DNA from: a virus | Length of the DNA: 21,400 bases | Direction: 5' to 3' (one strand) | IMG/VR virus record: IMGVR_UViG_3300034736_000596 | Location: 1 to 21,400 of that record | Part shown: positions 171 through 14,744 of the stretch, in pieces | Position numbering within the stretch: position 1 is the stretch's first letter | Layout of the letters: the number at the start of each line of letters is the position of its first letter | Notes under the pieces: generated by a model | Told to the model about the DNA's origin: nothing | Database searches by the model: none | The model's input: the letters and a program-made list of their open reading frames with translations, nothing else | Position numbers and translations under genes: made by a program

Positions 171-551
171 TCACAATGACGCGGGGTCAACGCCCGCATC
201 CTTCAACGCCTGGAGGGCAGCGTCGATGTCGTGGGTAACGGTCACATCAGCGTGGATGTTAGCGTCTACTTCGGTGCGATCCCGCCAGCCTGCTCGGTTC
301 TTCAGGAAGAATATCTGGGCTGATGTGTTGGGCTTGTCACCAGTTGCGCCTTCGAACAGGGCGTTCGTCACCGCGTCGATGCCGCGCTGCTTGCCAGCCT
401 TTAAGGTGGTAGCAAATCGTTCATCTTCACGCTTGCGTCTGCCTATGGTTGAGACAGATATGCCCAGGCTCACAGCTATCTGTTCTTCTGATAACCCTAT
501 CTTTGCTAGGTCGTAGAGCTTTTCGTAGTCAATCACGATTGTGTTAGCCAA
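171..551 (-). CDS. Terminase small subunit-like DNA-binding protein
   Basis: The 126-residue product has an N-terminal helix-turn-helix (about residues 15-40, EEQIAVSLGISVSTIGRRK). It then has the phage pattern of a basic helix, KAGKQRGIDAVTNALF, and the segment QIFFLKNRAGWRDR. This architecture is typical of terminase small subunits and related phBC6A51-type phage proteins, which bind the packaging site and recruit the large subunit. The reading frame is open to an ATG at 599, but I place the start at TTG 551. GAGG lies 8 bases upstream of it, and a TATAAT box sits at 591-586, so upstream ATGs would lie in or before the promoter. The gene is read leftward, like the virion genes at the right edge; terL would be expected beyond the left edge. 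Family assignment is fairly sure; the role in packaging is inferred. Confidence 0.75.
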   Translation of the reverse strand: MANTIVIDYEKLYDLAKIGLSEEQIAVSLGISVSTIGRRKREDERFATTLKAGKQRGIDAVTNALFEGATGDKPNTSAQIFFLKNRAGWRDRTEVDANIHADVTVTHDIDAALQALKDAGVDPASL

Positions 552-585
552 TGCTGAATCCTCAATATAAATGTAGATGAGGCGC

Positions 586-614
586 ATTATAACGTACATA
601 CCACAGCCTGTTGA
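586..614 (-). promoter_or_regulatory. Sigma70-like promoter of the terminase gene
   Basis: On the minus strand TCAACA (614-609) is followed after exactly 17 bases by a perfect TATAAT (591-586). The start of transcription would fall near 580, about 17 bases before the GAGG at 563-560 and the TTG start at 551. It may be the first promoter of the leftward late operon. Confidence 0.55.
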
Positions 615-883
615 GTATCCCCTGTTAGGTTGACTATATGGTATGACACTATGGATTACAGGCTAACCAGGGGCCATTGGGTGCCTGCACAGGCAAATCA
701 CCCAAGATTAGATATCCCATGCCGCTCTAGCCCCCGCCGTTACTGGTGCGGCACAGGTTACTCAGAAAACATGGGTTATTTTCCAAATCGTTTATAAAAG
801 GTTTATATACCGCATAGGCACACAGGTATAAGTAGTATATTTATATATATATATAGAATAAAAAAAAGGGTGAGTAACCTGAT

Positions 884-981
884 TAACCCATGCCGGCCCA
901 TAGCCTATGCGGTCTATGACTGCACAGGTTATTTACATCAACGACCAATAACCCGTGCAGAAGGGCATAACCCATGCCGGC
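884..981 (+). repeat. Direct repeat TAACCCATGCCGGC, two copies plus a partial copy
   Basis: TAACCCATGCCGGC is present at 884-897 and 968-981, 84 bases apart, or eight helical turns. A partial copy, TAACCCGTGC, starts at 949. The inverse ATGGGTTA is at 771-778, and an AGGTTACTC/GAGTAACCT pair flanks the AT-rich stretch (about 755 and 872). Confidence 0.6.
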
Positions 982-989
982 TTGACCAT

Positions 990-1063
990 TTCCAGATGGA
1001 ATTATTCTTTTCCAGATGGAATTAATTCTTTCCCAGCTGGAATTAATCTTTCCCAGCTGGGAA
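990..1063. repeat. Array of four helically phased palindromes
   Basis: Four palindromic boxes occur in a row: CCAGATGG at 992-999 and 1012-1019, and CCAGCTGG at 1033-1040 and 1053-1060. Each is embedded in TTTCC...GGAAT-type flanks separated by AATTAAT-type spacers. Start-to-start distances are 20, 21 and 20 bases, two helical turns, so bound dimers would sit on one face of the helix. The last copy is a perfect 14-bp palindrome, TTCCCAGCTGGGAA (1050-1063). Likely binding sites for a replication initiator, terminase or regulator; the protein is unknown. Confidence 0.65.
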
Positions 1064-1171
1064 GACATCGTCATCAACACCAACCCACACCAACATCACA
1101 ACCACATACACGCACCAAAACATCATTACTCTACAACCTCACAGCTCACAATTAAAAGATGCGGCATATTA

Positions 1172-1748: not shown

Positions 1749-1898
1749 TTATATGCGTATCCGTCGATCACACGCTCGACAATGCTCCGCATAGCTATCA
1801 TGCTCATGGGCACACTTACAGTACGCCTTTCGGCACTGCACCTCAGTGATGCTGTACTTGCCCACTGTCCGCACAGCTTTACCTGTAATAACCCTCAT
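1749..1898 (-). CDS. Tiny cysteine-rich, zinc-binding-like protein
   Basis: A 49-residue frame fits the otherwise empty gap between the methylase-like gene and the membrane-protein gene, on the same strand. It begins MRVITGKAVRTVGKYS and carries five cysteines and two histidines in a C-x4-C-x-C ... HEH ... C-x2-C arrangement. That suggests a small zinc-binding knuckle. The start ATG lies 20 bases after the upstream stop; the ribosome binding site is weak (only AGAGAT before ATG). Its size and dense Cys/His pattern are typical of overlooked phage genes. It is supported by position, strand and composition only; function unknown. Confidence 0.4.
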   Translation of the reverse strand: MRVITGKAVRTVGKYSITEVQCRKAYCKCAHEHDSYAEHCRACDRRIRI

Positions 1899-1918
1899 AT
1901 CTCTGACTGTCAGTACCA

Positions 1919-2509
1919 TTACTTGTTACTCCATTGGTTTGCTATGGCATCAGCGATGCCTTGGTATGTAGTTGATCTAATCTTCCAGCGACCCGCACTT
2001 GGGCCAATCTTGTTCTGACCACTCGGCGTTTGGTTATCCCAGTACCCGCGCTCTGGCTTCTCAACTATGTTGGTAGGCTTCAAAGGGGGTAAGTTATGCA
2101 GCCATAATCCGGTCTTTTTGGACTCAGAATGGCCGTATTCGTAAGGTTGGACGTACTGCGTTGGTTTGATAGGCAACACACCGACAGGGTTTTCAAGGGC
2201 CACCTTGTCAGCATGTTTTTTGGCGTGTTCCCAAAGAGCCATAGTCCACTCAATCGCTTGGTGGCGCATAGCGTTCTTTGCCATGCCCGTGCCGTAGTGA
2301 GCGTTACCGCTCACAGCCAGAGCCGTACAGGGGGGATGCATCATTATTAAATCCCAACCTTCAGCTATTACCGGCCAACAGTCGCCGGTGTAATGTTGGG
2401 GGCTATCATCATCGGAAGGTAACAGGTCGCAGCTATAAGCGTCATGCCCCAGTGCGCGGAAAGCCTCCCTGACTTTGCCGCTGTACTCGCAAGCAACTAG
2501 CACCTTCAT
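1919..2509 (-). CDS. Short C5-cytosine methyltransferase-like phage protein
   Basis: The 196-residue protein opens with MKVLVACEYSGKVREAF, the FxGxG-like SAM-binding start of C5-methylase relatives. It has an HPPC motif at about residues 58-61, matching the catalytic PC motif, and ENP at 106-108 in place of the usual ENV. There is no room for a normal target-recognition domain; true C5 methylases are usually over 300 residues. Phages often carry such short relatives annotated as cytosine methylases. It may modify phage DNA against host restriction, or be a diverged non-methylating relative. The ATG overlaps the upstream stop as ATGA, with GAGGTGG as ribosome binding site, so translation is probably coupled. 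Fold assignment is fairly good; activity is inferred. Confidence 0.65.
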   Translation of the reverse strand: MKVLVACEYSGKVREAFRALGHDAYSCDLLPSDDDSPQHYTGDCWPVIAEGWDLIMMHPPCTALAVSGNAHYGTGMAKNAMRHQAIEWTMALWEHAKKHADKVALENPVGVLPIKPTQYVQPYEYGHSESKKTGLWLHNLPPLKPTNIVEKPERGYWDNQTPSGQNKIGPSAGRWKIRSTTYQGIADAIANQWSNK

Positions 2510-2919
2510 GCTGCCACCTCTTCCTTGGCAAACCACATCTCAACATGCTCAGTAGTAAGGTCGTAGTTTTTGCCAGTGTTCATGTCAGTGGCTATAAAAG
2601 GACGCTTACGAGCGCGTGGCTTGAATCCAATAAGCAATAACTGCTTACCATCAATCTTGTGGACGATGTCAGCATCTAATGACACAACCGCGCTGAACTT
2701 TTCTCTCCAAGCTAATTCTTGGTCTAGGTCTTTTTGAATCTGCGTTTTGCCGCCTTTAGTCATTACCTTAAAGCCGTTGATCTTGGCAGAGTCATCGTCA
2801 TATGCGATGTTGCCCATCTCAAACTCCAGACCATACGCCTCTAAAATTGGAGTAAGTTCTTGCTCTAAGATTTCACGGATTAGCTTTGCAATTTCACGGT
2901 TCATTGTTTCAATTTTCAT
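2506..2919 (-). CDS. Conserved-looking phage protein of unknown function
   Basis: This 137-residue product has an N-terminal amphipathic helix (about residues 1-28, with alternating Ile/Leu and charged residues) and a mixed alpha/beta body. A basic stretch, GFKPRARKRPF, lies near residue 103, and the end is acidic. I chose ATG 2919 because AAGGGGAAACAAG precedes it closely. The frame continues upstream to 2988, but that would overlap the preceding gene. Its stop overlaps the start of the methylase-like gene (ATGA), so the two are likely translationally coupled. The basic stretch could contact nucleic acid; I do not recognise the family. Confidence 0.6.
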   Translation of the reverse strand: MKIETMNREIAKLIREILEQELTPILEAYGLEFEMGNIAYDDDSAKINGFKVMTKGGKTQIQKDLDQELAWREKFSAVVSLDADIVHKIDGKQLLLIGFKPRARKRPFIATDMNTGKNYDLTTEHVEMWFAKEEVAA

Positions 2920-2956: not shown

Positions 2957-3304
2957 TTATGCTCGCGTCTTCTCAAAGTGCTTCTCAACGTGCTTGGGGT
3001 ATTCGCCCTGCAACGCGCCGTGAACTATCTCGTACATATCCCTTCTGCTAAGGCCAATATCGTCGTTACCGAAATTCCTGCTAAGGCCAATATCGTCGTT
3101 ACCGAAATTCCTGCTAAGGCCAATATCGTCGTTACCGAAATTCACCCAAAGCTCAATCATCGAGTTTCCATCAATGAGGGCCGCACAGGCTAAAGCTTCG
3201 TGGTAGGTGTCAGTAAAGGCATAGTCTTGGATGTCGCCATACTCATCCATTTCAGCAATTGCGTACTCGTAAGTCCGTTCAAGAGCTTTAAATAGGTTAG
3301 TCAT
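2957..3304 (-). CDS. Hypothetical protein with three perfect 11-residue repeats
   Basis: The 115-residue protein has an acidic helical N-terminus (FKALERTYEYAIAEMDEYGDIQDYAFTD in outline). About residues 54-86 consist of three identical copies of NFGNDDIGLSR, and the C-terminus (RDMYEIVHGALQGEYPKH) is charged. It looks like a small globular phage protein interrupted by repeat expansion: sequence on either side would join smoothly with a single copy. It is the first gene of the leftward accessory operon, directly downstream of a tandem operator at 3345-3375, with AGAGG upstream of the ATG. Function unknown. Confidence 0.6.
   Translation of the reverse strand: MTNLFKALERTYEYAIAEMDEYGDIQDYAFTDTYHEALACAALIDGNSMIELWVNFGNDDIGLSRNFGNDDIGLSRNFGNDDIGLSRRDMYEIVHGALQGEYPKHVEKHFEKTRA
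3045..3143 (+). repeat. Perfect 33-bp tandem repeat, three copies, inside a gene
   Basis: Units at 3045-3077, 3078-3110 and 3111-3143 are identical base for base. The unit length is a multiple of three, so the frame of the minus-strand host gene is preserved and the repeat encodes three copies of an 11-residue motif. Absence of any divergence points to recent duplication or slippage. Confidence 0.95.
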
Positions 3305-3700: not shown

Positions 3701-5965
3701 TTAATTTCCTTCCCAATTTGCGGGGTCTAGCGGGTCTTGATCGACATCACCCTCGTCGATCTCAGCCCAGTTAATATTTAAATTGTTGGCTGCGTCAAAG
3801 ATGAATCGTGCGGCTTCTAGGCTGCTAACATCGGCGTGTCTGATCCGAAATCCATCTACCTTTTTCTGTATCCCCCTGAACATCGGTTCGTACTTTTTTA
3901 TCGATCTCCAAAATGCGTTTTCTTTCAAAACATACTCAAATCTGCTCACGACAGACGAACAATAGATGTCGTAAATCTCTGACTTAACCACCTCTGATCC
4001 GAAGCTCAAGACGTTTCCGCCCAACCGGCTTGCGCGTATCTCGCCGTTTTGTAAGCAGTTTAAAATCCAAGAATCTACGGTATCCAAGGTCTCTAGCTTT
4101 TGATCTTGTAGCGCCATCGTTTGAGGGATCATTCGAAGGTTGAGCTTGGACATATCAAAGTTGCGGAGGTAATGTATTAATGCCGATGCGCCGCCACACT
4201 CATACCAGGTGTCGAGACGGGCGAAATACGCGCTGTCCTGCTGCCTCGATTGACCAACGTCAAACACCGCAAAGCGTCTCTCGTCGAGACCCGCTGGCAC
4301 CACGAAGTCATCGTTCGATGTGAAGAGGATGCGCGTGTAATTTGACGCTGAGTAGCTATCGACTCCCTTTCGCTCAATCTGGATTTTGGGGTTAGTCAGC
4401 AGGTCTTTCAAAGCGCCCTCGCTCGACTTAGCACCGGCCCAATAAGCCTCATCTGCTTGCAGCAAAAGGCACGACTCTAGGTGTCTGTTAAAGTTACCTG
4501 TAACGTGATCAGCGCGACTCACTATCTGGTGGTGAGCCGCGAATAGGTGACCTAATAGCTCACCGAACTTGGTCTTACCCGTACCCTTACCTCCGCGAAG
4601 CACTAAGCCAACCCCGACTTTGGTCATCGGCTTCTGGATGATCTGAGCCGCCCAACCGATGATGTAATTAGCGTTAACAACATCACCGTCAGCGATTACG
4701 TCAGTAACAAAGTCAAGCCAAGGCTGAACGTCACCCTCCCTAGCCTCTACTGACCAACCGCGCCACAGGTTGTACCTGTCGAGCGTTTGGATGTCAGGGG
4801 CGAAGGTAAGGCCCGCCGCATAGGTTCTCCGCTCTGGAGCCTCAAGCCACATATCGACGAGGTTCAGCAGCTTCGGCTTCTCGTCGCCCGACAAGACGCG
4901 GCAGTTCATATGCTCTTTCTTGAGATCGTCAAGCTTGTACAGCACCATGTTGTCTTTGTTGAGGTCTTCGCGCAGCACTCTAGCCGCACCCTCCACCTGA
5001 ACGAAAGCCCACTCTCTAAGCATTTTCGGAAGTTGTTCTTCCTTTATTACATGACTAACGGCCTTGTTTTCCATCGCCTTCACAGAAGCTAGGGTGACCG
5101 CGTTGGCGCTGCTTGAGTCGAACGTGGAGTACCGTCTAGCGCAGTGGCCCTCTTCATAGCTCACACCCGCACTCGACCACTGATCCCAGATGTCACAGCC
5201 GATGTCCTCACCGTTAAAATGGTGGTGCAGCGCCATGCCGATCTTCACCCACTCGTCGTGATGAGAGTCGGGATCAATGGACTTGAGCATTTCGTGAACA
5301 TCTTGCTCAGAAACGTCCATCTTTTGACGTAGCCAAGACAAATCATCTGGGTCTGTTTCAGCAGCGGTTTGTGACGCACCTACCCGCGCCAGTTCCCACC
5401 CCTCCTGATTGCCAGCAAGCTCCTCGAAGTATGCAACAAACGCAACAGCCTGATCGCGTGTGATCACTGGTAGGTCAGACTGTTTAATGTCTGCGATACT
5501 CAAGCCCTTAACCCACTTGTAGGGTTGATTAGTGTTGGGGTGAATACCAAACGCAACAAATTGCTGGCCGTCTGCTAACACCTCAACAGCGTGTTTCGTG
5601 CCAACCGCATCGGAATATTCCGCAGATCGTATTTTGCTAAAGCTGCCCTCAACCCTAAAAGGTAGGATGCACTTCGGCTTCTGACCGATCCGCACAGCCG
5701 CATCGCCTACGTTGGCTTTGAGCCAATGTAGTAAGTCGTAGTTAACCTTTGCGTCGAGGCAGTCGATATCGACAGCGATAGTGCTTCGGCATAGAACCCC
5801 TACCCCGCCATCCGCATGACCGTTAGACAACCACTTATCAACGTCATCATGCGTTGCTCTGATGTCTTGCCAGCCCGAGATCATCGGAAACTTCTTGCCC
5901 TTTTTGAGCGGCACGATTTCGTAGCCTTGATCTACCAGCTTGTGACCAAATTCTTTGAGGTACAT
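3701..5965 (-). CDS. Bifunctional primase-polymerase / SF3-like helicase
   Basis: This 754-residue replication protein has three parts. Residues 1-185 form an archaeo-eukaryotic-type primase-polymerase domain: VDID with D66 and D68, RIGQKPK at 93-99, and VEVLADGQQFVAFGIHP at 128-143. Residues 205-300 resemble the PriCT_2 domain. Residues 450-600 form a superfamily 3-type helicase: Walker A GGKGTGKT at 458-465, Walker B DE at 505-506, TSN at 549-551 and arginine finger DERR at 561-564. The same arrangement is known from phage NrS-1 primase-polymerase (DUF5906 helicase part). It should prime and unwind DNA at the phage origin. The frame extends upstream to 6016, but ATG 5965 has AGGGG at proper distance and lies 4 bases after the regulator gene stop. 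Confidence 0.88.
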   Translation of the reverse strand: MYLKEFGHKLVDQGYEIVPLKKGKKFPMISGWQDIRATHDDVDKWLSNGHADGGVGVLCRSTIAVDIDCLDAKVNYDLLHWLKANVGDAAVRIGQKPKCILPFRVEGSFSKIRSAEYSDAVGTKHAVEVLADGQQFVAFGIHPNTNQPYKWVKGLSIADIKQSDLPVITRDQAVAFVAYFEELAGNQEGWELARVGASQTAAETDPDDLSWLRQKMDVSEQDVHEMLKSIDPDSHHDEWVKIGMALHHHFNGEDIGCDIWDQWSSAGVSYEEGHCARRYSTFDSSSANAVTLASVKAMENKAVSHVIKEEQLPKMLREWAFVQVEGAARVLREDLNKDNMVLYKLDDLKKEHMNCRVLSGDEKPKLLNLVDMWLEAPERRTYAAGLTFAPDIQTLDRYNLWRGWSVEAREGDVQPWLDFVTDVIADGDVVNANYIIGWAAQIIQKPMTKVGVGLVLRGGKGTGKTKFGELLGHLFAAHHQIVSRADHVTGNFNRHLESCLLLQADEAYWAGAKSSEGALKDLLTNPKIQIERKGVDSYSASNYTRILFTSNDDFVVPAGLDERRFAVFDVGQSRQQDSAYFARLDTWYECGGASALIHYLRNFDMSKLNLRMIPQTMALQDQKLETLDTVDSWILNCLQNGEIRASRLGGNVLSFGSEVVKSEIYDIYCSSVVSRFEYVLKENAFWRSIKKYEPMFRGIQKKVDGFRIRHADVSSLEAARFIFDAANNLNINWAEIDEGDVDQDPLDPANWEGN

Positions 5966-5969
5966 AGCG

Positions 5970-6251
5970 TTACCCCTGACGAGATGATGTGTATATAACT
6001 TCAGATGCTTCTTCAAATTCCTTCAGGATGTCTGGACATAAATCCTTCCAGCTCACCTGTCCGTCGGTTATTAATTCCATCTGCAACGCTCGGTGGGCGG
6101 GTACAACACCACTCAAGCGCCACTTGCTTAAAGCCTGCTTGCTAACATCCAGGCGCCGCGCCAGGGCGTTACAGTTTTTAAGGCCAGCATCTTCCACCAC
6201 CTTGTCTATTGCCGTTTTAACCGACTCTGCGTGTTCTGAAATAAAAAACAT
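5970..6251 (-). CDS. Cro/YdaS-like helix-turn-helix regulator
   Basis: The 93-residue protein has a helix-turn-helix at about residues 28-50 (NALARRLDVSKQALSKWRLSG), followed by VVPAHRALQMELITDGQVSW. That pattern is typical of YdaS/Cro-like phage repressors. It is the first gene leftward of the divergent promoter region and ends 4 bases before the primase-helicase start, so it probably acts as the lytic-side switch protein and as a brake on its own operon. AAAGG precedes the ATG by 8 bases. YdaS homologues have also been called antitoxins, but no toxin partner is present. It is one of two candidate proteins for the CAAC-N5-GTTG operators. Confidence 0.75.
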   Translation of the reverse strand: MFFISEHAESVKTAIDKVVEDAGLKNCNALARRLDVSKQALSKWRLSGVVPAHRALQMELITDGQVSWKDLCPDILKEFEEASEVIYTSSRQG

Positions 6252-6306
6252 CTATTTACCTTTTTAAGTAATTGCTCATTAAATTAATATATTCAACTTT
6301 CTGTGG

Positions 6307-6334
6307 TTGACACAGTAGCCGATGCAGTTAATAT
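6307..6334 (+). promoter_or_regulatory. Rightward early promoter
   Basis: A consensus TTGACA (6307-6312) is followed after 16 bases by TAATAT (6329-6334). Transcription would start near 6341 and run into the nuclease-SSB-polymerase-helicase operon. The -35 box lies in the left operator and the start point in the right operator. Confidence 0.6.
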
Positions 6335-6339
6335 GTCAA
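6312..6339 (-). promoter_or_regulatory. Leftward early promoter
   Basis: On the minus strand a consensus TTGACA (6339-6334) is followed after 16 bases by TACTGT (6317-6312), a weak but usable -10. It would drive the Cro-like regulator and primase operon. It occupies the same DNA as the rightward promoter, so the two could not be bound by polymerase together. Confidence 0.5.
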
Positions 6340-6389
6340 CAACAGAAAGTTGATTATTTAAAGAAACATTATTCGGAAAAGGTAATTTT

Positions 6390-7517
6390 ATGAAACATGC
6401 AGCACTAGGAGCGTCTAAAGCGCACCGTTGGATGCGGTGTCCAGGTTCGATAATGTTGGAGTCCACATTTCCCGAGCAAACATCTTTCTTTGCAGCGGAA
6501 GGAACAGCCGCACACGCACTGGCCGAAGAGTGTCTGCTCAAGCAGAAGCCACCCGAACATTTTATAGGTGTGGAGTTTGAGGGCTTTATTGTTGATCAGG
6601 TGATGGCTAACCACGTTGCCACTTATGTCGATTTCTGCAACGGTCAGGAAGGTGATGAGAAGCACGTTGAACTGCGCGTAGATTACTCGCAGTGGGCAGC
6701 AGGCGGCTTTGGTACTTGTGATTTCGTAACCCTACACGACGGCATTCTGCACGTTATCGACCTGAAGTATGGGCAAGGCTTAAAGGTAAACGCTAACCGC
6801 AACGAGCAGTTAATGCTCTACGGATTAGGGGCTGCTTATGAGTTTATTGACCAAGTCGATACGGTCAGCATGACCATCGTGCAGCCACGGCTCGATCACA
6901 TTGACACCTACTCGATGAGGGCCAAAGACCTATTTAAGTGGGCTGACGAGGTTGTCAAGCCCGCCGCTTTGGCAACGATGCGTCCAGACCCTACCTTTAA
7001 CCCTACTAAAAAAGCGTGTCACTTTTGCAAAGCCAAACCAACTTGTCGGGCGTTAGCAAAGCACAACTACGATTTAACACTGGGGTCGTTCGACAATCTT
7101 GAAGAGCCGCTTTTAGTGCAGGTTCCACACACGATAAATGTTGAAGAGCTATCTAACCTACTGCCAAAAATGGACGCGCTTATAGGGTGGGCGCAAGGCG
7201 TTCAGAAACACGCGCACAAGCTTTTGCTAGATGGCGGCATCCTACCAAACTACAAACTGGTGTCTGGCAGAGGTCAGAGAAAGTGGATCGATCAAGATAT
7301 AGCGCAAGACCAACTCATCGAGATGTGCGGCGAAGAAGCCCTCATATCTAAACTCATTTCGCCAACTCAAGCTGAAAAGCTGCTTGGGAAGGCGAAGTAT
7401 GGAGAGATCGTCGATCTCATCCACAAACCCGAAGGTAGACCACAGCTTGCGCCGGACACAGACCCTCGTCCGGCTGTTAAGCCTAACGCTACTGAATACT
7501 TCAGCGACATAACTTAA
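6390..7517 (+). CDS. Cas4/RecB-like PD-(D/E)XK exonuclease (DUF2800)
   Basis: This 375-residue protein matches the DUF2800 phage family. Nuclease residues in view are H42 in EGTAAHALAEE, D111 in GFGTCDFV, D124 and K126 in VIDLKYG, and Q140. One cysteine near the N-terminus (C17, RWMRCPGS) and three after the core (C210, C213, C219 in CHFCKAKPTC) match the layout of the iron-sulphur cluster in Cas4 and AddB nucleases, so a 4Fe-4S site is predicted. It probably resects DNA ends for recombination or replication. It is the first gene of the rightward operon, with AAAAGG before the ATG, and is followed by the ssDNA-binding protein gene, its usual neighbour in phages. Confidence 0.85.
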   Translation: MKHAALGASKAHRWMRCPGSIMLESTFPEQTSFFAAEGTAAHALAEECLLKQKPPEHFIGVEFEGFIVDQVMANHVATYVDFCNGQEGDEKHVELRVDYSQWAAGGFGTCDFVTLHDGILHVIDLKYGQGLKVNANRNEQLMLYGLGAAYEFIDQVDTVSMTIVQPRLDHIDTYSMRAKDLFKWADEVVKPAALATMRPDPTFNPTKKACHFCKAKPTCRALAKHNYDLTLGSFDNLEEPLLVQVPHTINVEELSNLLPKMDALIGWAQGVQKHAHKLLLDGGILPNYKLVSGRGQRKWIDQDIAQDQLIEMCGEEALISKLISPTQAEKLLGKAKYGEIVDLIHKPEGRPQLAPDTDPRPAVKPNATEYFSDIT

Positions 7518-7539: not shown

Positions 7540-8088
7540 ATGAGCATTATTACACTTAAAAATGTACGACTATCCTTTCCACAAATCTGGTCAGCAAAGG
7601 CGTTTAACGAAGGTCAGACACCGAAGTTTTCAGCCAACTTTTTGCTTGATAAAGAAGGCAACATAGATCAAATCGATGCTATCAAAAAAGCGATTAAGCA
7701 GGCAGCTACTGTCCATTTTAACGGCGAGATACCGAAGGGTTTAAAGACGTTTTTAAACGATGGCGAAGAGAAGGCATACGATGGTTATGACGGCGCTATG
7801 TATGTGTCTACATCTGGCAAGAACAGACCAACAATCATTGATCGTGACCGCACACCCCTAGTTGAAGAAGATGGTAAGCCATACGCAGGATGTTACGTCA
7901 ACGCCGCCATCAGCCTTTGGATTATGGATAACAAATGGGGTAAGAAAATAAACGCAAACCTCGTTGGAATCCAGTTTGTAAAAGATGGCTCAAGCTTCGG
8001 CTCTGGCGCTGTAGCTGCGGAAACAATCTTCGATGACATCAGCAGCGAGCAAGCAGCAGACGCAGCCGATGATGATTTTCTTAGCTAA
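7540..8088 (+). CDS. Phage single-stranded DNA-binding protein (DUF2815)
   Basis: The 182-residue product is recognisable as the DUF2815 / Enc34-type ssDNA-binding family, an OB-fold group functionally similar to T7 gp2.5. Typical elements are the opening TLKNVRLSFPQIW, a long lysine-bearing middle, CYVNAAISLWIMDNKWGKKINANLVGIQF, and an acidic tail ending DDDFLS. The tail probably docks partner enzymes, as in other SSBs. It should coat ssDNA made by the helicase and nuclease. It lies 22 bases after the nuclease gene. An operator of the CAAC-N5-GTTG type follows its stop codon. Confidence 0.85.
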   Translation: MSIITLKNVRLSFPQIWSAKAFNEGQTPKFSANFLLDKEGNIDQIDAIKKAIKQAATVHFNGEIPKGLKTFLNDGEEKAYDGYDGAMYVSTSGKNRPTIIDRDRTPLVEEDGKPYAGCYVNAAISLWIMDNKWGKKINANLVGIQFVKDGSSFGSGAVAAETIFDDISSEQAADAADDDFLS

Positions 8089-8093
8089 ACCAT

Positions 8094-8110
8094 TACAACT
8101 TTTGGTTGTA
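8094..8110. promoter_or_regulatory. Operator between the ssDNA-binding protein gene and polymerase genes
   Basis: TACAAC-TTTTG-GTTGTA (8094-8110) is an uninterrupted inverted repeat containing the CAAC-N5-GTTG core at 8096-8108. It begins 6 bases after the upstream stop codon. A TATATA stretch follows, but no convincing -35/-10 pair was found, so it may act as a roadblock or on a cryptic promoter. Confidence 0.55.
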
Positions 8111-8157
8111 TATACGACAAACGTGCGGCGGCAATGTAGCGCCGCACAGGGACTAAA

Positions 8158-8448
8158 ATGAAAGCAACTTTGAGCTATCCGTATCTGGGTGAACGATTCC
8201 CCGATTTAAACGCCACCGTGGTGGTTGTAAAAGACATGGCTGCACTTGCCGACATTCCGTACATGCTTTTGAAGAATCGCATGGGAATGAAGAGGACGCG
8301 GACTGAGCAAGATATTAGCGTCTTTATCACCGACACAGATTTGCTCCCACGCCGAAAAACCTCGCCGAAAAAAGGTCGCAGGCAAGGTCGCAAAACACCT
8401 GCAAGTCAAAGCATCAGTGCGATTTGGCTACGGAAACCCATAATATGA
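8158..8448 (+). CDS. Small basic protein, possible helix-turn-helix
   Basis: The 96-residue product is not firmly recognised. Its middle (ALADIPYMLLKNRMGMKR) resembles the short helix-turn-helix found in small phage proteins, where a G-[IV]-[PS]-x-x-T-[LI]-x-x-R pattern is usual. The C-terminal third is strongly basic (PRRKTSPKKGRRQGRK). It could bind nucleic acid. AGGGA precedes the ATG at proper distance. The stop overlaps the DNA polymerase start as ATGA, so the two are probably translationally coupled. A regulatory role or a polymerase accessory role are both possible. Confidence 0.6.
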   Translation: MKATLSYPYLGERFPDLNATVVVVKDMAALADIPYMLLKNRMGMKRTRTEQDISVFITDTDLLPRRKTSPKKGRRQGRKTPASQSISAIWLRKPII

Positions 8449-10679: not shown

Positions 10680-12025
10680 ACCGCAAAAACCTACACCCGT
10701 ACCAAGAAAAAGCTGTCCAGTTCGTGAAGGACAACCCGAAGGCCGCGCTATGGATCGACATGGGATTAGGTAAAACAGTCTCAACGCTCACAGCCTTATC
10801 TGACTTGATTGATCAGAAAGTGATCAAAAAGACGCTAATTATCGCGCCCCTGCGCGTCTCAAATCACACTTGGCCAGCAGAGATACACAACTGGAAGCAT
10901 ACGAGCGCGTTAAATTACACGATTTTGAGCGGTTTAACCCCGAAAAAGCGTGAAGCGGCAATCGATAGAGACACCGACATCCACATTATTAATCGTGAAA
11001 ACATACCGTGGCTCGTCGAGCAGTTAGGCCAAAGGTGGCCATACGACTGCGTTGTGATTGACGAGAGCAGCAGCTTTAAGTCTCACACATCTAAGCGATG
11101 GAAGGCGCTGCGTAAAATATTAGGTAAGGTTAGCCGAATGGTATTGCTCACAGGCACACCCGCTCCAAACTCGTTACTGGAGCTTTGGCCGCAATTCTAT
11201 TTGCTCGATAAAGGTGATCGCCTGGAGAAAACCAGAGGTAAGTTTCTATCAAAATACTGCACAGCCGTGGGCAATCCGCAATGGAATCAGTGGGTTGTTA
11301 CACCTAGTCGCGCTCAAGAAATACACAGTGCCGTGGCCGACATCGCTCTAGTGATGAATGCAGAAGACTACCTGCAGCTTCCAGAGCGTGTAGACATAAA
11401 GGTCTCAGTCGCCCTGCCCCCATCAGCGCGGTCGTTATACGAGGATATGAAGAAAGATTTTATTATTCAGTACGAGGGCGGGGAGGTCTTGGCGGTTAAC
11501 GCCGCCGTCCAAGTTGGAAAGTTGATGCAGATTGCCAATGGTAATATCTATGAAGAGGATGGTGAATATGTCCGTATGCATTGTGAAAAGTTTGACGCGC
11601 TCGAAGAGATTATTGACAGCACCAACGAGCCAATCCTCATAGCGTACAACTTTAAATCTGATTTAGCTGAACTGCGGCTACTGTACCCAGATTCGGAGGT
11701 CATCGGCAGAGACCCAACCGTCATCGACAGATGGAATGCAGGCAAAATTCCGATCCTGCTTGCACACCCCGCAAGTGCAGGACACGGGTTAAACCTGCAA
11801 AAAGGTGGGAGCATAATAGTATGGTTCGGCCTCACCTGGTCTCTAGAGTTGTATCAGCAGTTTAACGCCAGACTGCATCGCCAGGGGCAAGAAAAACCTG
11901 TGCGAATCTTCCACATAATGGCCGATCAAACCGCCGATCAAGCTGTGTTTGAAGCACTGACTAGCAAGAAAGATAATCAAGACCTGCTACTTAATGTTGT
12001 TGAGTCATTAAAAAATAACAAATAA
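10673..12025 (+). CDS. SNF2-type DEAD-box helicase/translocase
   Basis: The 450-residue protein is a superfamily 2 helicase of SNF2 style. Motifs in order are Q-like HPYQ (8-11), Walker A DMGLGKT (29-35), DES Walker B (130-132), TGTPAPN (160-166), a helicase C domain with LLAHPASAGHGLNLQ, and motif VI QQFNARLHRQGQ (395-406) with R400 and R403. Such phage proteins are thought to translocate on duplex or branched DNA and remodel forks. The start overlaps the VRR-NUC gene, so expression is coupled. It is the last gene of the rightward replication operon; an operator and a new promoter follow the stop. Confidence 0.92.
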   Translation: MLDRKNLHPYQEKAVQFVKDNPKAALWIDMGLGKTVSTLTALSDLIDQKVIKKTLIIAPLRVSNHTWPAEIHNWKHTSALNYTILSGLTPKKREAAIDRDTDIHIINRENIPWLVEQLGQRWPYDCVVIDESSSFKSHTSKRWKALRKILGKVSRMVLLTGTPAPNSLLELWPQFYLLDKGDRLEKTRGKFLSKYCTAVGNPQWNQWVVTPSRAQEIHSAVADIALVMNAEDYLQLPERVDIKVSVALPPSARSLYEDMKKDFIIQYEGGEVLAVNAAVQVGKLMQIANGNIYEEDGEYVRMHCEKFDALEEIIDSTNEPILIAYNFKSDLAELRLLYPDSEVIGRDPTVIDRWNAGKIPILLAHPASAGHGLNLQKGGSIIVWFGLTWSLELYQQFNARLHRQGQEKPVRIFHIMADQTADQAVFEALTSKKDNQDLLLNVVESLKNNK

Positions 12026-12030
12026 ACTTA

Positions 12031-12069
12031 CAACTCTAAGTTGACTAAGCATCTTTTAGGGGTTACTAT
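12031..12069 (+). promoter_or_regulatory. Operator and promoter of the putative repressor gene
   Basis: CAAC-TCTAA-GTTG (12031-12043) overlaps the -35 box TTGACT (12041-12046). A 17-base spacer then leads to TACTAT (12064-12069), placing the transcript start near 12076. The downstream gene encodes a helix-turn-helix protein, so this looks like an autoregulated repressor promoter, independent of the rightward operon. Confidence 0.65.
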
Positions 12070-12099
12070 CTCGCTGAATCAACGAACAGAGTGTGTGAG

Positions 12100-14444: not shown

Positions 14445-14744
14445 TTTGTACACCTTTTAATAAATTCAGGTGTAGTATATCGCGGTAAACGTAGCGTTGA
14501 CAGGGATGTTGGAGTTATTTATTTGTACATCAATTTGTACAGTAGCAAAAAGCACGAAGGTGTACGAAAATGATTAATCGTTATAAATCAATAGGTTACA
14601 TGATGTTTTAAAATGTCCTAAAATTGACACAAATTACTCTAAGTCATTGATAATTAACAGGAAATTGTATATTGATCCGATTCCCGATCGGGATAACTCC
14701 TATATAAATCAATGACTTAGAAGCTGTTTGTACTACTTTTGTAC
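14445..14744. other. attP-like region with arm-type repeats
   Basis: This non-coding stretch upstream of the integrase carries five exact TTTGTAC boxes in one orientation: 14445-14451, 14522-14528, 14534-14540, 14727-14733 and 14738-14744. Four form pairs spaced 12 and 11 bases. Between the pairs lie a 13-bp perfect inverted repeat (CTAAGTCATTGAT at 14639-14651, its complement at 14708-14720) and the palindrome TCCCGATCGGGA (14682-14693). Paired direct repeats around a central symmetrical core beside an integrase gene are the usual anatomy of a tyrosine-recombinase attP. The exact crossover cannot be seen without the host site. Confidence 0.6.
14639..14720. repeat. Inverted repeat around a central palindrome (putative att core)
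   Basis: CTAAGTCATTGAT (14639-14651) and ATCAATGACTTAG (14708-14720) are exact reverse complements, 56 bases apart. TCCCGATCGGGA (14682-14693) is a perfect palindrome inside. The right arm and palindrome recur as an inverted copy at 97-156. Confidence 0.75.

Follow-up and report, generated by a model that had tools for sequence, protein, structure and literature searches.

The 21.4-kb IMG/VR record analysed here (the window) carries, beside the gene for the terminase small subunit (terS), an array of four palindromic boxes that is very probably a real, selected DNA element. It borders what is probably a replication origin of a known type, composed of iterons (713-977) and an AT-rich stretch, and we put the chances at about even that the array acts as an accessory cis-acting element at the outer border of this iteron-type origin. 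Read along the minus strand, the primase-helicase is followed by small genes, a PHROG 796 gene, a terminator-like stem (1238-1255), a micro-ORF, the array, iterons, the AT-rich stretch, further iterons, a terS promoter-like site and terS (Table 1).

Table 1 Features of the window discussed in the text (nucleotide positions in the window)
Feature	Position	Strand	Detail
terS ORF (terminase small subunit)	171..599	-	
terS promoter-like site	586..614	-	TCAACA-17-TATAAT
terS-side iteron set	713..778	713-722 +, 751-760 -, 769-778 -	TAACCYRTGC with up to 1 mismatch
AT-rich stretch between iteron sets	781..886		74% AT in 781-870; richest 60 nt 82% from 827
Array-side iteron set	884..977	884-893 +, 901-910 +, 922-931 -, 949-958 +, 968-977 +	
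Box 1	990..1001		TTCCAGATGGAA
Box 2	1010..1021		TTCCAGATGGAA
Box 3	1030..1042		TTCCCAGCTGGAA
Box 4	1050..1063		TTCCCAGCTGGGAA, perfect 14-bp palindrome; copy best conserved in relatives
Conserved 27-codon micro-ORF	1043..1126	-	MMFWCVYVVVMLVWVGVDDDVFPAGKD; box 4 inside
56-aa Cys-rich ribbon-like protein	1749..1919	-	
Prim-Pol / PriCT-2 / DUF5906 primase-helicase	3701..6016	-	Inferred initiator
Iteron-associated C-terminus	3704-4039		About residues 660-771

The preliminary description of this DNA had placed the boxes at 992, 1012, 1033 and 1053, and CCANNTGG cores were found at these positions with a spacing of 20/21/20, the last of them within the perfect 14-bp palindrome that had been described. 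Tandem Repeats Finder reported 992-1060 as a repeat of period 20 with 3.4 copies and 92% matches, indicating that the spacer is repeated as well as the box. The four-box palindromy score of 20 was reached by none of 60 whole-window and none of 2000 regional dinucleotide shuffles, the best of which scored 19, a narrow margin on a score that takes in palindromy only. Taken singly, boxes with up to 3 mismatches are unremarkable (14 window matches relative to 10 expected, with at least 14 in 13 of 100 shuffles), and what makes the array strong is the succession of four similar boxes together with their conservation. Neighbouring boxes with intact arms were 19-20.5 bp apart across 19 homologous segments (the window and 18 relatives), spacings that are not independent and that lie near 20 rather than 21, so that the two helical turns proposed earlier hold approximately. 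The surrounding region, previously called a large non-coding one, proved not to be purely non-coding, as box 4 falls within the conserved micro-ORF.

Relatives were gathered by a TerS search (best 80 of 195 relatives) and a primase-helicase search (70 loci); further searches with a micro-ORF alignment (16 loci) and with the L110 primase (70 loci) returned mostly the same contigs again. Boxes were tallied over L001-L140, L155, L207 and the window in segments that contain the micro-ORF motif followed by 250 nt or more, giving 41 distinct, though not independent, 400-nt segments with the window included. Boxes (TTCC-N4to6-GGAA) were present in 23 of these 41 micro-ORF-bearing segments, in place in 21 and moved in 2, and two or more were seen in 14 of the 21. 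The remaining 18 segments had none, showing that the array is not essential to this origin type. The absence of the array from related phages, which would have counted against it, was thus not what was found: it is kept in part of the family. Among 19 contig records, several being fragments, 15 matched TTYCCANNTGGRAA, solely at the array locus and with zero matches for a reversed-pattern control, which argues for a single-locus DNA element and not a regulon operator. As for the four records without it, L083 stops before the origin, L089 and L102 have no micro-ORF in the loci examined, and L037 has a boxless origin. In the core tree (30 rows, last 120 residues removed), the array-bearing L110 grouped with the array-less L033 (99/96), indicating that the presence of the array is patchy.

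Full boxes have constant half-sites (TTYCCA/TGGRAA) and a variable centre (GC, TC, GA, GG or AC), the remaining boxes being shortened (TTCCAGTTGGAA, TTCCCGTGGGAA) or degenerate; L110 has two full boxes 38 apart with a degenerate stretch between them. These TTYCCA half-sites and the free 2-bp centre of the full boxes are consistent with binding of a dimer, and the arm spacing, which varies from TTCC-N4 to N6-GGAA, is unusual for one rigid dimer. A second palindrome, such as TTAGTGACCACTAA or TTAGTGGATACTAA, lies just after the array in L008, L100, L110 and others, including most of the group B members compared, and is absent in the window. A pattern scan aimed beyond the family gave 62 matches, family members among them; of the non-family matches with two chained boxes, L189 and L143 were inspected, and like boxes were found only in L189, an unrelated-looking viral contig with two TTTTCCCAGTTGGAAAAA boxes in series at 2313-2350, 22 bp apart.

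In relatives the micro-ORF comprises about 20-50 codons with the consensus MxxWCVYVVTMLVxIAVED and a hydrophobic core, read by eye, and its product is probably a membrane peptide to judge from these residues. It adjoins the origin whether or not a relative has the array, had no Pfam match up to E 1 and only weak PHROG matches (best E 0.02), and looks coding because of the codon-position differences in its core, where comparisons gave 31/9/198 changes at positions 1/2/3 in group B and 31/25/61 in group A. Translated, the first box gives VFP(A/S/D)GK in group A and DS(Q/H)(V/L)GK in group B, the same DNA word being kept in two reading frames, and hence the box is conserved as DNA. Third positions changed in 5 of 75 pairwise comparisons in the box codons relative to 61 of 180 in the core for group A (6 sequences), and in 39 of 225 relative to 198 of 540 for group B (10 sequences), counts in which the pairs are not independent and the box residues are possibly constrained too.

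A neutral tandem duplication in the micro-ORF tail, without function, would account for a box count that ranges from 0 to 4 and for the duplication of the spacer along with the box, but is highly unlikely given that the arms have stayed symmetric in different lineages and reading frames despite drift of the 2-bp centre, and that the array reappears at a second place beside the origin. Equally hard to sustain is an RNA element in which the palindromes form hairpins in the micro-ORF transcript. Although four of seven arrays folded better than shuffles (z of -4.73 for the window, -3.53 for L003, -2.53 for L020 and -2.21 for L090), the other three were not clearly better (L110 -1.71, L015 -0.71, L100 +0.35), the good folds of the window and L003 pair neighbouring boxes, which is impossible in single-box phages, and symmetry is maintained within single boxes with the centre free.

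The adjacent DNA has the layout expected of an iteron origin. With up to 1 mismatch, TAACCYRTGC occurs 16 times in the window, 8 of these within 713-977, and five of its six exact window matches fall within 600-1280; no 8-mer in the origin region of the window reaches 4 copies, and the words there are variants of TAACCYRTGC. Relatives likewise have a short word in many copies and both orientations around AT-rich DNA, and this word switches in concert between them (CCTGTGCA, CCTGTGCG, CCTGAACG, CCCTGAGT, CCCGTGCG, CCTTGACC, CCTGTGAG, CCTGACAC). AT-rich DNA flanked by two iteron sets was found in the window and in 8 of 8 hand-picked relatives that were mapped, and the AT-rich stretch of the window is the probable melting site. 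GC skew in the window and two long records tracked gene direction, with the origin signal absent, and was uninformative. Phages with the CCTTGACC iteron also have extra tandem repeats beside the origin: ACCGCGAC-containing units in L024 (repeats at 7996-8213) and, from k-mer counts, in L030, L043 and L111, and in L024 also AAGCTGCAGAAAGTT in 7.7 copies.

The primase-helicase is probably the initiator, and its C-terminus may be what reads the iterons. Its Prim-Pol, PriCT_2 and DUF5906 domains scored above cut-offs and a VapE-like domain below, and DNA primase PHROGs were matched, so that the window itself encodes the helicase and primase parts required of such an initiator. This assignment follows mainly from near-identical proteins that differ in C-terminus and iteron. 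The primase-helicases of L023 (iteron CCCGTGCG) and of L024 and L114 (iteron CCTTGACC) are 99% identical in residues 20-200 and 96% in 340-640, and 58-59% identical in residues 660-760, differing in the last ~110 residues and in the iteron, whereas L024 and L030, with the same iteron, are 95% identical in residues 660-760. Across 25 genomes (300 pairs), each with its own origin, C-terminal identity and iteron similarity had a partial correlation of 0.32 once the rest of the protein was controlled for, a value reached in 1 of 2000 label permutations; an alternative run on 22 genomes (231 pairs), in which three origins were taken from near-identical contigs, gave 0.33 (reached in 2 of 2000). Without this correction the C-terminus tracks the iteron no better than the rest of the protein does, with rank correlations in the two runs of 0.44 and 0.40 for the C-terminus, 0.47 and 0.47 for residues 20-200, 0.50 and 0.50 for residues 340-640, and 0.28-0.50 for the rest overall (25 genomes). 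There are exceptions in both directions, as L010 and L100 have different iterons and C-termini that are 85% identical, and L087 and L100 share an iteron with C-termini that are 68% identical. In the predicted model of the C-terminus the elements follow a winged-helix-like order, at low confidence (pLDDT 69.3, best Z 6.1), and comparison with the PDB yielded winged-helix-like matches of middling quality only; the P4 origin-binding domain was absent among the PDB matches listed.

The array had been offered as a candidate origin, a proposal that finds indirect support for the neighbouring DNA, through the iterons around AT-rich DNA and the association of C-terminus and iteron, but not for the array, which is a separate element beside it. 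The array is not linked to iteron type: L020, with iteron CCTGAACG, has the same four boxes as L087 and L134, with iteron CCTGTGCG, and L155, also of type CCTGAACG, has two boxes of the L020 kind. Its constant place is the outer edge of the iteron region (the window and six array-bearing relatives mapped). In L015 and L019, contigs from two samples, boxes are missing after the micro-ORF and the array lies about 0.5 kb away on the terS side, ~100 bp upstream of that gene; the L015 array is situated past the last iteron.

As an accessory element, each box would bind one dimer, adjacent dimers on roughly one DNA face would bind together, and occupancy of the array would control events at the origin, in the simplest case as a block or gate to transcription from upstream of the micro-ORF before it reaches the iterons and melting site. 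Such a roadblock to transcription into the origin is a tentative proposal that we consider possible but doubtful. More speculative, and on balance unlikely, is an origin-border module formed by the array and the membrane micro-ORF, in which a coat of phage or host dimers would insulate the origin from transcription or tether it to the membrane, the array being able to change sides and iteron/initiator specificity to swap independently.

A rather unlikely alternative is an ordinary operator, at which a dimeric regulator controls the micro-ORF unit or genes across the origin with no role in replication. Tandem palindromes are typical of repressor sites, and the first box has a fixed place just past the micro-ORF core in most array-bearing lineages. 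However, the boxes lie downstream of the start codon and not at a promoter, the micro-ORF of L015 and L019 has no box with the array at its distance of half a kilobase, and no second site was found in the 19 contig records (several being fragments), where the exact box is absent elsewhere. Nor did any of the 14 window matches (up to 3 mismatches) fall at 6251-6390 or 12025-12091, the places examined for a CI/Cro operator. Region 6251-6390 of the regulators has instead a different, GTTGAC/GTCAAC inverted repeat (6284-6362, 34-nt arms, 82% complementary), which lies between the Cro/YdaS-like and DUF2800 genes and is probably the lysogeny operator. GTCAACC words are also repeated in relatives, in the DNA upstream of terS.

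Recognition by TerS for packaging, as a pac or cos site, would fit the position of terS as the next gene, 0.4 kb away in the window, and repeated TerS sites beside terS are a known pattern. This reading is nevertheless very unlikely. In a TerS comparison of 25 rows (16 with boxes, 9 without), the helix-turn-helix residues, whose placement is inferred, were common to array-bearing phages and their close array-less relatives, GISRSTISRRKREDDTF being found in both L008 (array) and L033 (none); the distance from array to terS varies from about 0.1 kb in L015 to about 1 kb in L087 and L104; and conservation of the array followed neither the DNA-binding residues of TerS nor the position of the gene. 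The pac site of the preliminary description is accordingly disfavoured, as is its late-promoter control element, the array being found on both sides of the origin, at distances from terS that range from about 0.1 to 1 kb.

As a protein that might bind the array, the 56-aa ribbon protein is a weak candidate on the grounds of co-occurrence, much of which is explained by shared ancestry. It was found in 21 of 26 contigs labelled array-bearing and in 1 of the 23 others; the label covers L005 and L006, each with a single 12-bp box, and L015 and L019, where the array has moved. Four of the misses (L012, L013, L020, L155) do not cover the gene, and L110 covers the locus without having it; the labels are unsure for three contigs, L083 (the 1 of 23, whose sequence stops short of the origin), L089 and L102 (the last two with no micro-ORF in the loci examined). 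A TM-like small protein (1556-1711) occurred in 19 of the 26 array-bearing-labelled contigs and 0 of the 23 others. A predicted DNA methyltransferase (PHROG 757; 1919-2536, minus strand) adjoins the ribbon gene, and at 3045-3143 three perfect copies of a 33-bp repeat within an ORF encode NFGNDDIGLSR x3.

The true start of terS is probably the TTG at 551, because the longer ORF would include TATAAT (586-591) and because the alignments of many homologues begin at about this TTG. Promoter-like sites in 560-1300 (1 found, 2.0 expected in shuffles) were not above expectation alone, and terminator-like ones numbered 3 relative to 0.7 expected; no promoter-like site was detected on the side of the micro-ORF. 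The TATAATGCG of the terS promoter-like site is repeated upstream of terS in relatives. A DNA search with 600-1280 among phages gave zero matches, and the closest phage proteins were, for TerS, those of Roseobacter phages CRP-901 and CRP-902 (46-47% over 64% of the length) and, for the primase, those of Vibrio phages of the VP2, VP5 and phiVC8 kind (27-28%); two scans of genome contigs found no relatives of the primase-helicase. Elsewhere in the window TAAGTCATTGAT occurs exactly at 123-134, 14640-14651 (+) and 14708-14719 (-), with one further copy at 1 mismatch (0.1 expected with up to 1 mismatch) and two copies upstream of the integrase gene, and is a possible attachment-site or recombination repeat.

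With these assignments an uncultured phage family gains a testable origin and initiator, and its near-identical initiators differing in C-terminus and iteron provide a natural experiment that could show how such a domain reads DNA. The analysis also flags an origin-border site and a conserved micro-ORF short enough for ordinary gene callers to miss; neither was described in the titles and abstract openings covered by a literature search. Operator arrays for dimeric repressors of temperate phages consist of tandem palindromes about two helical turns apart, as does the array of the window, which differs from them in being a single locus beside a probable origin, the regulator intergenic region having a GTTGAC-type repeat instead.

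The origin is of a known kind in a different setting. PMC6092414 describes an AT-rich region flanked by two sets of short iterons for the Escherichia coli PICIs compared there and, for PICIs, an origin directly 3' of the initiator gene, and PMC7581432 describes recognition of the origin through the C-terminal domain of the SaPI Rep helicase and binding of a putative SCCmec origin by the C-terminal domain of Cch2. The window similarly has two short-iteron sets around AT-rich DNA. Unlike PICIs and SaPIs, the elements here are phages, about 40 kb in size (39-41 kb for the longest related contigs), whose Prim-Pol and helicase are fused, and their probable origin is bordered by a palindrome array and a micro-ORF; unlike in PICIs, the probable origin lies beside terS, about 2.7 kb past the 3' end of the initiator gene (gene end 3701, iterons 713-977). 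The alpha protein of phage P4 is a fusion of helicase and primase with a cognate ori in the portions of PMC7145576 and PMC6092414 that treat it. The window resembles P4 in combining the initiating helicase and the primase in one protein, and differs in that the primase is of the Prim-Pol type and the iteron words differ between relatives. In P4 the iterons are bound by the C-terminal domain of alpha, and we know of no such palindrome array there.
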